DNA from: Blastococcus sp. CCUG 61487
GTDB lineage: Bacteria; Actinomycetota; Actinomycetes; Mycobacteriales; Geodermatophilaceae
Assembly (NCBI RefSeq): GCF_005222955.1
Contig: NZ_LWUA01000268.1
Span: 1 to 45,648, forward strand
DNA: 45,648 nt
Direction: 5' to 3'
How positions within the stretch are numbered: the stretch's first letter is position 1; the number at the start of each line of letters is the position of its first letter. Positions 6,258 to 40,466 of the stretch are shown one piece after another. The translations under genes and the position numbers were made by a program. The notes beneath the pieces are model-generated. The model was not told where the DNA came from. It was given only the letters and a program-made list of their open reading frames with translations, and did no database searches.

Positions 6258-7624
6258 CCGCGCTGGCCGATCTGCTGCGCGAGTGGATGCCCGGGCAGCG
6301 GTGGTTCGGGAGCAAGGGCCGCGAGTGGGCCGGCATCACCGAGGAGGGGTTCTTCCTCGACCGCAGCGAGCCGGTCCTGTCGGTGCACCGGGTGACGATC
6401 ACCTACGCCGACGGCGGCTCCGACACCTACCTGGTCCCGCTGTCCTGGCGCGACCACGCCGTCGAGGACCTGGCGTCGGCGTTCGTGGGGTCGGTGACCA
6501 ACGACGGCCAGGAGTCCTTCGCCTACGACGCGATGCGCGACCGGGACGCCACGACCCCCTGGCTGATCCACCTGGCCAACGCCTCGACGGTCGGGCCGAT
6601 GCACTTCCACCCGACCGGCGTCGCCCACATCCCCGAGGGGCTCCCCGGCGACGTCCTGTCCACCGAGCAGAGCAACACCTCCCTGGTCTACGGCCAGGAG
6701 GCGATCTTCAAGCTGTTCCGCCGGCTGGAACCCGGGCTCAACCCCGACGTCGAGATCCACGACGCCCTGCGGAACTCGGAGAACCCGCACATCGCGCCGC
6801 TGCTCGGGCACATCGAGATCGACGATCCCGACCCGTCCCGCCCGCCGGCGACGGTGGCGATGCTGCAGACCTTCATCCCCAACGCCAGCGACGGCTGGCG
6901 GCTGGCCACGGCCAGCTTCCGCGACCTCTACGCGGAGGGCGACCTGCACGCCGACGAGGTGGGCGGGGACTTCGCCGCCGACAGCGAGCGGCTCGGCGCG
7001 GCGACGGCGTCGGTGCACACCGACATGGCCGCCGCGCTGCCCACCCAGCCCGCCGACCGGGACTGGTTCGCACTGGTCGCCCGCCAGATGGCCGAGCGGC
7101 TCGACGCGGCGATCGAGATCGTGCCGCAGGTGGCCGAGCACGCCGACGGGATCCGGAGGCTCTACGCCGCGGTGGCCGAGAGCACCGAGCCCGTCGTCCG
7201 CCAGCGGGTGCACGGCGACCTGCACCTCGGCCAGGTGCTGCGGACGGCGACCGGCTGGATCGTGCTGGACTTCGAGGGCGAGCCCGCCCGGCCGCTGGCC
7301 TCCCGCCGCGAGCTGGACAGCCCGCTGCGGGACGTCGCCGGGATGCTGCGCAGCTTCGACTACGCGGCCCGGCACCTGCTGGTCGAGCAGCCCGAGGACG
7401 CCCAGCGCGCCTACCGGGCGCAGGAGTGGGCGGACCGGAACCGCGCCGCGTTCTGCACCGGGTACGCCGAGGCCAGCGGGCTCGACCCGTGCGGAGAGTC
7501 ACCACTCCTTCGGGCGTTCGAGGCCGACAAGGCGGTTTACGAGTGCGTCTACGAGGCACGGAACCGACCGCACTGGCTGATGATCCCGCTCCACTCCCTG
7601 TCCCGGCTCACCAGTCGCGACTGA
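6254..7624 (+). CDS. mak: Maltokinase (Pep2/Mak)
   Basis: Phosphorylates maltose with ATP to alpha-maltose-1-phosphate, the GlgE donor. The 456-aa protein has the N-terminal cap typical of maltokinases ([13 protein letters not shown] near 11-23) and an aminoglycoside-phosphotransferase-like C-lobe. The catalytic loop is VHGDLHLGQ (319-327) and the metal-binding motif is DFEGEP (339-344). The GTG start at 6254 overlaps the treS stop by four bases. There are 26 bases between its stop and glgB. Confidence 0.95.
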
Positions 7625-35991: not shown

Positions 35992-36579
35992 ATGACGGTC
36001 CGGCTGACGCGCATCTACACGAAGACCGGCGACGCCGGGCAGACCCACCTCGGCGACATGAGCCGGGTGTCCAAGACCGACCCGCGGCTCGTCGCCTACG
36101 CCGACGTGGACGAGACCAACAGCGTCCTCGGGACGGCCCTGGCGCTGGGCTCCCCCGAGCCCGGGCTCGCCGATCTGCTGCGCGGCATCCAGAACGACCT
36201 CTTCGACGTCGGCGCCGACCTATGCACGCCGGTCACGCCCGACCCGGAGTACCCGCCGCTGCGGATCACCCCGGCCTACACCGAGCGGCTCGAGGCCCTC
36301 TGCGACGAGTACAACGAGACGCTGACCAAGCTCAACAGCTTCATCCTCCCGGGCGGCACCCCGCTCGCCGCGCTGCTGCACCAGGCCCGGGTGGTCGCCC
36401 GGCGGGCCGAGCGCAGCGTGTGGGCGCTGCTGGCGGCGGACGAGGCGGACGGGCAGAGCGGTCGCACCAACGACGAGACCGCGCGCTACCTCAACCGGCT
36501 CTCCGACCTGCTGTTCATCCTCGCGCGGGTCGCCAACCCCGGCGGCGACATCCTCTGGGAGCCCGGCTCTCGACAGTGA
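35992..36579 (+). CDS. PduO-type ATP:cob(I)alamin adenosyltransferase
   Basis: Adds the 5'-deoxyadenosyl group to cob(I)alamin, making the cofactor for acyl-CoA mutases. The 195-aa helical-bundle protein has the ATP-binding start RIYTKTGDAGQT, VDETNSVLG, LFDVGADL and a C-terminal RRAERSVWAL...LNRLSDLLFILAR. This supplies the B12 mutase at 32267-34285 and is handed over with MeaB. It is divergent from murA across 22 bases and convergent with the DUF2550 gene across a hairpin repeat. Confidence 0.94.
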   Translation: MTVRLTRIYTKTGDAGQTHLGDMSRVSKTDPRLVAYADVDETNSVLGTALALGSPEPGLADLLRGIQNDLFDVGADLCTPVTPDPEYPPLRITPAYTERLEALCDEYNETLTKLNSFILPGGTPLAALLHQARVVARRAERSVWALLAADEADGQSGRTNDETARYLNRLSDLLFILARVANPGGDILWEPGSRQ

Positions 36580-36585
36580 TGGAAC

Positions 36586-36646
36586 GGCCGCCCTTCAGGG
36601 GCCCGCGCCGAGCGTGCGAGGCGTGGGGGGAAGGGTGGTCCTTCTC
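36586..36646. repeat. Hairpin repeat, copy A (conserved core, variable stem)
   Basis: The outer arms GGCCGCCCTTC (36586-36596) and GAAGGGTGGTCC (36630-36641) enclose the inner stem CCCGCGCC/GGCGTGGG and loop GAGCGTGCGA (36610-36619). TTCTC follows and directly abuts the stop of the minus-strand DUF2550 gene. It fills the whole gap between two convergent genes and may terminate both. Confidence 0.7.
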
Positions 36647-37048
36647 CTAGCGGACCGGCGGGGCGCTCTCCACCCAGGAGAGGAAACCGGTGACGGTCGA
36701 GGGGTCCATGGCCAGCTCGCGGGGCCCCTCGGCCGTGGAGCACGACAGGACGACGACGTCGTCCGGGAGCGGCAGGTCGTCGCGGCCGGCCGCCCGCTGA
36801 CCTGTGACGGCGAACTCCGACCGACCCAGCCGGTGCGTCGGGCGCACGGACAGGGAGAGCGCCCGGTACCAGAGCAGCGCGTCCCCGCCGTACCAGGCGA
36901 CCCCCACCGACCAGCGGGAGGCGCCGGGCGTGCGCAGCCACATCGTGACCGCCCCCAGCCCGGAGAGCAGGAACCGTCGGCGGAGCAGGAAGACGACCGC
37001 GACCAGGACGAGCACCAGCCCGGCGAGGACCAGGAGCGCGGTCGTCAC
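36647..37048 (-). CDS. DUF2550 family membrane protein
   Basis: A 133-aa actinobacterial protein with one N-terminal membrane segment (TTALLVLAGLVLVLVAVVFLL) and a cytoplasmic domain (WSVGVAWYGGDALLWYRALS, ELAMDPSTVTGFLSWVESAPP) of the DUF2550 family. It commonly sits just after atpC, as here (37 bases). Function unknown; its position suggests a link to the membrane or ATP synthase expression rather than proof of one. Confidence 0.85.
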   Translation of the reverse strand: MTTALLVLAGLVLVLVAVVFLLRRRFLLSGLGAVTMWLRTPGASRWSVGVAWYGGDALLWYRALSLSVRPTHRLGRSEFAVTGQRAAGRDDLPLPDDVVVLSCSTAEGPRELAMDPSTVTGFLSWVESAPPVR

Positions 37049-37085
37049 GGGGCGGTCCTGGTCGCTGCGGGGTGAGCCGGACGGG

Positions 37086-37475
37086 TCAGGCGGTCTCGCC
37101 GGCGGCGCGCAGCCGGGACTGCGCCCGCCGGGCCGCGGCCACGGCCTCGGCGTCGTCGTCCGCGGACTCGGCCCGGCGCAGCGCCTCGCGGGCGCGCTCG
37201 ACGTCGATCTCGGTGGAGATCTCCGCCGTCTCGGCGAGGATCGACACGCCGTTCTCGGTCACCGACAGGAAACCGCCGTGCGCGGCGACGACGAGGTCCT
37301 CACCGGACTCCGTGCGAATCGTGACGACGCCACCGGCGGCGAGTTCACCGAGCAGCGGCGCGTGGCCGGGCATGACGCCGAGCTCGCCCTCGGTCGTGCG
37401 GGCGATGACCATCGTCGCCTCGCCGGACCAGATCTTGCGCTCGACTGCCACCAACTCGACCTGCAGGGTCGCCAC
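37086..37475 (-). CDS. atpC: F1 ATP synthase epsilon subunit
   Basis: Rotor subunit that couples and restrains F1. The 129-aa protein has the N-terminal beta-sandwich ([33 protein letters not shown]) and a C-terminal helical pair ([30 protein letters not shown]). The GTG start has AGGAG a few bases upstream. It is 515 bases from atpD rather than adjoining it, with its own promoter-like element, so it may be transcribed separately. Confidence 0.95.
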
Positions 37476-37506
37476 GACACTCCTCGGATCCACGGACGGA
37501 CGCCCC

Positions 37507-37512
37507 ACTGTA
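37507..37512 (-). promoter_or_regulatory. Putative -10 for atpC
   Basis: Minus strand reads TTATACAGT (37515-37507), giving TACAGT as TANNNT, 31 bases before the atpC start. It is one of the most AT-rich short stretches around. It implies a short leader with the AGGAG site. No good -35 was found. Confidence 0.4.
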
Positions 37513-37513
37513 T

Positions 37514-37575
37514 AAGGACGCCTCCGCCCCGGTCCTGGCGGGCTCGGACGCGTGGGGGGAAGGGTGGTCCTTCTC
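37514..37575. repeat. Hairpin repeat, copy B (degenerate left arm)
   Basis: Its right half, GCGTGGGGGGAAGGGTGGTCC plus tail TTCTC (37550-37575), is identical to copy A. The left half has diverged; AAGGAC (37514-37519) still pairs with GTCCTT (37567-37572). The tail again abuts a minus-strand stop codon, that of the small ORF at 37576. Confidence 0.6.
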
Positions 37576-37761
37576 TCAGGCGGCGCGGCGGTACAGCAGG
37601 GTGAAACGGCCCACCCGCACCCACGGGTGGCGCACGGTGGAGGCCGGCGCCCACTCGCCGAGGTCGAACGGCGGAGCGGTGAGCGGCTCCGGACCGTGCG
37701 GCGGCCAGGTCCAGACCTGCTCCTCGGCAGGTTGCCGGTGCAGCGTCGCGTTCGCATCCAC
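37576..37761 (-). CDS. Small hypothetical protein between atpD and atpC
   Basis: About 61 aa from GTG 37761 ([17 protein letters not shown]... to ...FTLLYRRAA). The frame is open further up to 37872, but codon bias is convincing only from here. Nearly every third codon position is G or C, and the product is Trp/Pro-rich ([19 protein letters not shown]). I do not recognise it. It lies between two hairpin repeats and after a strong hairpin, where atpD and atpC normally adjoin. Confidence 0.45.
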
Positions 37762-37878
37762 GTGGCGGACCCCAGGGACGGCGTCCGCCGATCGGACGCA
37801 CTCCTGAGATGGTCGGCACGGGCGGCCGACCTCTGCAGGCTGTGACCTGAGAAACACACGGTCGGGTGACACGAACGC

Positions 37879-37916
37879 CGACGGCCGGGCCTCCCCGGAG
37901 GGAGACCCGGCCGTCG
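37879..37916. terminator. Strong hairpin between atpD and the small ORF
   Basis: An 11-bp perfect stem (37879-37889 with 37906-37916) contains an inner CCTCC/GGAGG pair. In the atpD direction it is followed by GCGTTCGTGT. Together with repeat copy C it should end most transcripts coming from atpD. Confidence 0.6.
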
Positions 37917-37932
37917 ACGTGAGCTACTGGTC

Positions 37933-37990
37933 GGCCCCGCTGCAGGGACCCGCGCTGAGCTTGCGAAGCGTGGGGGGCAGCGGGGTCCTT
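37933..37990. repeat. Hairpin repeat, copy C
   Basis: The outer arms GGCCCCGCTGC (37933-37943) and GCAGCGGGGTCC (37977-37988) differ from copy A yet pair with each other. The inner stem CCCGCGCT/AGCGTGGG and loop GAGCTTGCGA (37957-37966) follow copy A with a compensatory C-to-T/G-to-A change. It ends two bases before the atpD stop. Confidence 0.7.

Positions 37991-40466
<2,476 letters not shown>

Follow-up and report, generated by a model that had tools for sequence, protein, structure and literature searches.

A hairpin repeat placed at stop codons in Geodermatophilaceae, probably a mobile REP/MITE-like element whose fold favours the antisense strand

Introduction

What kind of element places a palindrome within a few nucleotides of the stop codons of several neighbouring genes? 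The question is raised by a stretch of 45,648 nt of contig NZ_LWUA01000268.1 of Blastococcus sp. CCUG 61487 (hereafter, the window), in which an earlier note had described three hairpins of one design within 1.4 kb, each close to the 3′ end of a minus-strand gene, and had wavered between a terminator or mRNA 3′ stabiliser and a REP-like mobile palindrome. The copies, as we argue below, are probably non-autonomous, mobile, palindromic repeats of the REP/MITE kind that belong to the family Geodermatophilaceae, a group of bacteria from soil and stone. The comparisons make it a testable question how such a repeat comes to sit nucleotides away from genuine stop codons while its copy number varies from 0 to at least 150 among species of one genus.

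Three gene ends in the window

Copy A (36586..36641, minus strand) is a hairpin running from GGACC to GGCC, 5 nt past the stop codon (36647-36649) of a DUF2550 gene (36647..37048, minus), and copy C (37933..37988, minus), with the same boundaries, lies 2 nt past the stop codon (37991-37993) of atpD (37991..39529, minus, ORF as listed). They are the two matches in the window at E<=0.01 to a covariance model of the repeat, at 36580-36645 and 37927-37992, with 86.4 and 87.2 bits, respectively (E ~1e-16, 437 kb searched), although both were among the sequences from which the model was built and their scores are thus not independent of it. Their differing outer arms, compensatory inner-stem change and near-constant loop are as the earlier note described. 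Copy B (37550..37575, minus), past the stop codon (37576-37578) of a 98-aa ORF (37576..37872, minus), comprises the gene-proximal half only: its first 26 nt (37575-37550) are identical to A, the sequence diverges beyond, and its model score of 15 bits (E 0.47) leaves it off the E<=0.01 list. Because full-length copies occupy the orthologous site in two other genomes of the genus (G006 and G003), with decayed ones in several other species, copy B is best regarded as the remaining half of a decayed copy and not as a full element. Hence, the common design ascribed to the three elements applies to A and C but not to B, whereas the proximity to minus-strand stop codons is common to all three, which lie 0-5 nt past the stop or overlap it.

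The far side of copy A faces a convergent cobalamin adenosyltransferase gene, whose stop codon is 6 nt away; the folded strand of copy A would be the plus strand. A GC-rich hairpin of the ordinary kind, outside the repeat family, is located 3′ of atpD (37874..37921, minus). The 98-aa ORF, which is situated between atpD and atpC and for which a search yielded no Pfam match, shows similarity at the same place in 23/23 genus genomes (44-99% identity, in some cases over partial length). Rfam 15 gave no matches in the window at gathering scores, and with permissive settings the region 36450-38100 yielded none that overlapped A, B or C.

Distribution of the repeat

A sequence pattern retrieved 28 places in the genome to which the window belongs, of which 14 were retained by eye for building the covariance model, with copy B and 13 places lacking the full design set aside. 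The model recovered 52 matches in that genome (E<=0.1) and matches in 22/23 genomes of the genus (E<=0.001), with copy numbers from 0 (G001), 2 (G016) and 4 (G007) up to at least 150 (G008); the high counts are lower bounds, as at most the best 150 candidates per genome were scored. In G011, nine matches in a contiguous 400 kb agree with its genome count of at least 109. The same design recurs widely in the genome and its relatives, an outcome that the earlier note had named as support for its claim; the observation is real and the family is larger than is visible from the window alone.

Beyond the genus, 101/112 Geodermatophilaceae genomes carry the repeat. In the order, 53/298 genomes match, 50 of the 53 lying within Geodermatophilaceae and the remaining three having 1-2 copies each (both copies of G164 are on a single contig), and in the class 3/394 genomes match, two belonging to the genus of the window and the third being weak (E 2e-5). 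A pattern scan of named genomes gave, among the 80 loci listed, 26 from Blastococcus, 26 from Modestobacter, 24 from Geodermatophilus, two from other Geodermatophilaceae, one from Trujillonella and one from a MAG labelled Frankiales; viral contigs contained no match to the exact pattern. By these family, order, class and named-genome counts, the hairpin repeat is close to restricted to Geodermatophilaceae. We found no description of such a repeat in Geodermatophilaceae in open-licence PMC text; in the available part of PMC9686282, on Geodermatophilaceae genomes, 'transposase' and 'intergenic' gave no hits and the two 'palindromic' hits refer to CRISPR. Within that body of literature, a repeat that is abundant across an entire bacterial family has seemingly gone undescribed.

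Covariation and the strand of the fold

Each unit consists of a hairpin some 56 nt long, which in part of the copies carries a right tail (GTTCCA...TCAC): G(T/C)TCC(A/G) follows GGCC in 59/189 copies, and a longer tail is found in 44. When the strand antisense to the adjacent gene is folded, the outer stem has 11 bp and the inner stem 8 bp, with a conserved 5/2 internal loop (AGGGN/GG) between them; the apical loop, GAGCNNGCGA, has 10 nt, and a short T-rich stretch comes after the hairpin.

In a sense-strand alignment of 14 copies, 95.6% of the cells were paired and covariation was 0.405, each value being reached in 0/500 shuffles; two weaker measures were reached by 2/500 and 8/500 shuffles, and slid versions of the alignment had covariation of at most 0.111. 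For the 123 copies from named genomes, aligned by fitting to the covariance model, the corresponding values were 94.9% and 0.349 (0/500 shuffles as high), whereas 56/500 shuffles matched the count of pairs with changes on both sides and 28/500 that of pair types. An antisense alignment of 80 copies, drawn from 125 that are exactly 66 nt long and leaning towards high-scoring ones, gave 99.3% pairing cells, 220 double-change cells and covariation of 0.422 (0/500 shuffles as high), with pairs changed on both sides reached by 9/500; left out of this set were eight genus copies, L098 and L066 without good reason, and 37 that came later in list order. Covariation had been taken as a sign of selected structure, and indeed both stems covary strongly, but part of the signal represents exchange of whole stems between copies.

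The fold had also been assumed to form on the gene-sense RNA strand, but the conserved fold fits the antisense strand better: a conserved A.C mismatch on the sense strand reads as G.U on the other. At one inner-stem position, the 226 distinct copies that measure 60 nt or more have A.C in 157 cases, A.T in 32, G.C in 29, G.T in one and other combinations in seven, so that a standard pair (G.U, U-A or G-C) is formed by 218/226 copies on the antisense strand versus about 60 on the sense strand. Taking the 18 pairs of the model together, cells of the A.C type outnumber those of the G.U type on the sense strand by 119 to 38, and by 83 to 37 without the one pair that supplies 36 of the 119, although the copies are related and these cells do not represent independent events. 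The antisense strand also folds better in 224/232 copies (mean -38.4 versus -32.1 kcal/mol for the sense strand). Given the conserved mismatch and the better antisense folding and pairing, selection most likely acts on a single strand, RNA or DNA, that has the antisense orientation with respect to the upstream gene. The repeat is a case where the structured strand can be read from sequence alone. At the foot of the hairpin, an invariant T is paired as G.U in 80/80 copies by RNAalifold, but a bulged form is equally mismatch-free; being invariant, this position provides no evidence for either pairing or bulge.

Placement at stop codons

The aligned matches number 215, of which named loci contributed 123 and the window's genome together with genus loci 92; 204 of the 215 were usable, being at least 60 nt long with a 60-nt flank. 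A stop triplet begins 3-10 nt ahead of GGACC in 180/204, compared with 7.4% and 8.5% for positions drawn at random from those loci, and, with genes called by a simple codon-usage gene caller, 156/204 full-length copies lie directly past the stop of a called gene and in the orientation of that gene. The concentration at gene 3′ ends suggested by the window therefore extends to the family at large. Among the other 48, 24 follow a stop triplet without a called gene and 24 have no stop triplet, one of the latter being inside a called gene. Stop adjacency amounts to 34/48 in the window's own genome (its 52 matches minus four short ones), and to 32/36 for genus loci and 90/120 for named loci, two sets that lean towards well-conserved copies. 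Among the 156 stop-adjacent copies, GGACC is separated from the stop by 0 nt in 12, 1 nt in 21, 2 nt in 20, 3 nt in one, 4 nt in 83, 5 nt in 14, 6 nt in two and 7 nt in three; accordingly, 151/156 fall within 0-5 nt, a spacing of 4 nt is favoured and one of 3 nt is nearly absent.

In a background of 1.02 Mb, counted on both strands, there are 992 gene stops and, in intergenic sequence, 3068 further stop-like triplets; relative to these numbers, real stops are preferred about twenty-fold (156 to 24), a preference to which counter-selection of insertions upstream of genes may contribute. Targeting of a DNA triplet fails as the full explanation, unless selection removes the rest, because all 82 copies with TGA at -7 follow called genes despite 2035 intergenic TGA triplets versus 860 TGA stops of genes in the background. 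The notion that the element itself supplies the stop codon was likewise discarded, as orthologous gene ends usually have a stop without the element too; the left end of five nested copies does read TGA or TAG. A terminator shared by convergent genes was also rejected, the next gene being convergent in 48/153 cases (three copies had no next gene) versus 322/971 in the background (p 0.71). Nineteen of the other 48 copies have a divergent gene start within 60 nt, and some of the non-stop copies are located inside older copies. By eye, the TA adjoining many of the divergent-start copies looks like part of the putative -10 box of the gene, and one copy (L167, near 1458-1521) adjoins an apparent tRNA gene on the other strand.

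Turnover at orthologous sites

After atpD, the element is present in 6/23 genus genomes, once in degenerate form, whereas the ordinary hairpin farther on is visible by eye in all 23, irrespective of the element; hence, the repeat did not replace the atpD hairpin. The nearly or entirely repeat-free genomes G016 and G001 group with each other beside G003 and G012, which have at least 129 and at least 85 copies, respectively, in a tree of one atpG-atpD stretch in which several nodes are weak. Four different complementary stems are found in G004, G011, G008 and G005 at one and the same stop codon, that of a gene with the C-terminal residues PPLLYDD, while the surroundings remain constant, and one site of this gene shows repeated right tails. 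In the genus of Geodermatophilus siccatus, a single stop codon is associated, depending on the species, with single, nested, inverted-nested, decayed or missing forms. Nested copies with similar junctions are found at L190, L202 and L206, and arrays of right halves at L240, L199, L111 and other loci. Presence and absence, nesting, arrays and decay are characteristic of repeats that move or are amplified in some other way; no target duplications could be resolved at orthologous sites, where the species are too diverged between genes.

Several further arrangements were observed at such loci. The right halves at L111:1315-1566, L240 and L199 stand in tandem (units of about 45-62 bp) beside a full copy, and G011:C24:140444-140641 holds three 66-nt matches in exact tandem. 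In two loci (L321, about 6942-7020, and L320, near 6960-7010), two tandem copies of a different palindrome, with the core CGAGATCGCCGATCTCG, lie just past a stop codon where other species have the hairpin element; this palindrome did not occur elsewhere among the loci examined.

A mobile repeat and its rivals

Of the two options originally put forward, the REP-like mobile palindrome fits best: within one genus the copy number ranges from none to at least 150, orthologous sites are polymorphic, and copies nest and decay. We envisage that a putative factor acting in trans would copy the unit upon recognizing the antisense-strand fold, and that this recognition would keep the two arms complementary. 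New copies would land, or survive, directly 3′ of stop codons in the orientation of the gene, with a minority adjoining divergent gene starts or entering older copies, and many would decay afterwards. The use of genuine stops might reflect targeting tied to translation or mRNA, or else survival only at gene ends.

The terminator or stabiliser option is less well supported. A 3′-end RNA element of the upstream gene, be it a terminator, a block to 3′ exonucleases or a hairpin met by the terminating ribosome, which has spread and been kept by selection, would account for the tight, oriented placement and for the twenty-fold preference for real stops; the latter exceeds what motif targeting would give and counts against mobility. 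The sense hairpin is also stable (mean -32.1 versus about -27 kcal/mol for random 66-mers), and, according to the part of the source available, E. coli REPs can reduce translation when a stop codon is less than 16 nt away (PMC12306157). By the same token, gene-end copies may affect expression in the stress-resistant Geodermatophilaceae. Nevertheless, we regard a selected 3′-end element, although it is the strongest of the rivals, as unlikely, given that the conserved fold fits the antisense strand, that atpD keeps its ordinary hairpin with or without the repeat, that copies decay, that two genomes nearly lack the repeat beside copy-rich sisters, and that a simple terminator scan for a hairpin plus T tract was negative at all three elements of the window, whichever strand was read. 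A terminator or insulator acting on the antisense strand, stopping transcription into the 3′ side of the gene or into a promoter from upstream, would agree with the strand of the fold, its 3′ foot at the stop codon, the mean of 3.4 T in the next 8 nt (1.1 in a control stretch) and the copies adjoining divergent gene starts. However, convergent neighbours are not enriched, the internal and apical loops are conserved beyond the needs of a terminator, and the terminator scan found nothing at the elements, which together make this role improbable. Ectopic gene conversion among dispersed copies, with the covariation arising from whole-hairpin exchange instead of selection for pairing, would explain how complete stems differ at one orthologous site amid constant surroundings and why a restricted set of arms keeps recurring (63 distinct in 191 copies, the top five accounting for 79). 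Yet, it leaves the strand asymmetry, the constant loops, the new sites and the nesting unexplained, and we consider it very improbable as an alternative, even if conversion and mobility are compatible and can act together.

If the repeat is mobile, what could move it? REPs and BIMEs of Proteobacteria are associated with RAYT (Y1) transposases, and the dispersed, strand-specific palindromes near stop codons look REP-like, but a classical RAYT-driven system is scarcely credible here: the Y1 transposase profile PF01797 was matched in 0/23 genus genomes by a search that was positive in 5/14 control genomes, and we reject it for the genus of the window, while allowing that a diverged Y1 protein could escape the profile. 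SINE-like spread by reverse transcription was considered as well, since the copies end fairly precisely on the side of the gene but variably on the other; with a reverse transcriptase profile in only 4/23 genus genomes, it amounts to speculation. No clear long element that could represent an autonomous parent was apparent in the scanned loci of at least 5 kb, which contained one half-pair: at L221:2164, a left half lies 2753 nt upstream of a right half with a complementary arm, the latter seemingly part of a nested copy. Tentatively, and with rather low confidence, the element might be inserted or kept at genuine stops by way of the mRNA or the terminating ribosome and not of a DNA motif, with the antisense-folded RNA as the recognized form and with spread by an enzyme that differs from known REP transposases.

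Comparison with known repeats and terminators

Mycobacterial MIRU elements are short actinobacterial repeats located at stop codons (DTGA sites) in the orientation of the gene, and in these respects they resemble, by their general description, the Geodermatophilaceae repeat. To our knowledge, MIRUs are not built on a covarying hairpin, and it is the possession of one that, as far as that description goes, sets our repeat apart. MITEs, which are small, non-autonomous, palindromic and multi-copy, with polymorphic sites, offer another parallel in that the Geodermatophilaceae repeat has many copies and is absent from some orthologous sites, but the ends of its copies vary and neither a target duplication nor a parent transposon has come to light. 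With intrinsic terminators, the repeat shares a GC-rich hairpin at gene 3′ ends and a short T-rich stretch on the antisense strand, although it differs from them in its conserved internal and apical loops, the antisense fold and the lack of a real T tract.

REPs and BIMEs, as far as the available part of PMC12306157 describes these, are likewise short intergenic palindromes that are dispersed, favour one strand and in part lie near stop codons, whereas the sequence and fold of our repeat are different and the genus has no detectable Y1 transposase. The names Blastococcus and Modestobacter and the stem Geodermatophil- are absent from the main text of PMC12306157, in the part available. Placement differs as well: in that source, 446/4,072 predicted E. 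coli REPs (about 11%) lie within 15 nt of a stop codon, compared with 151/204 copies of the Geodermatophilaceae repeat within 0-5 nt.
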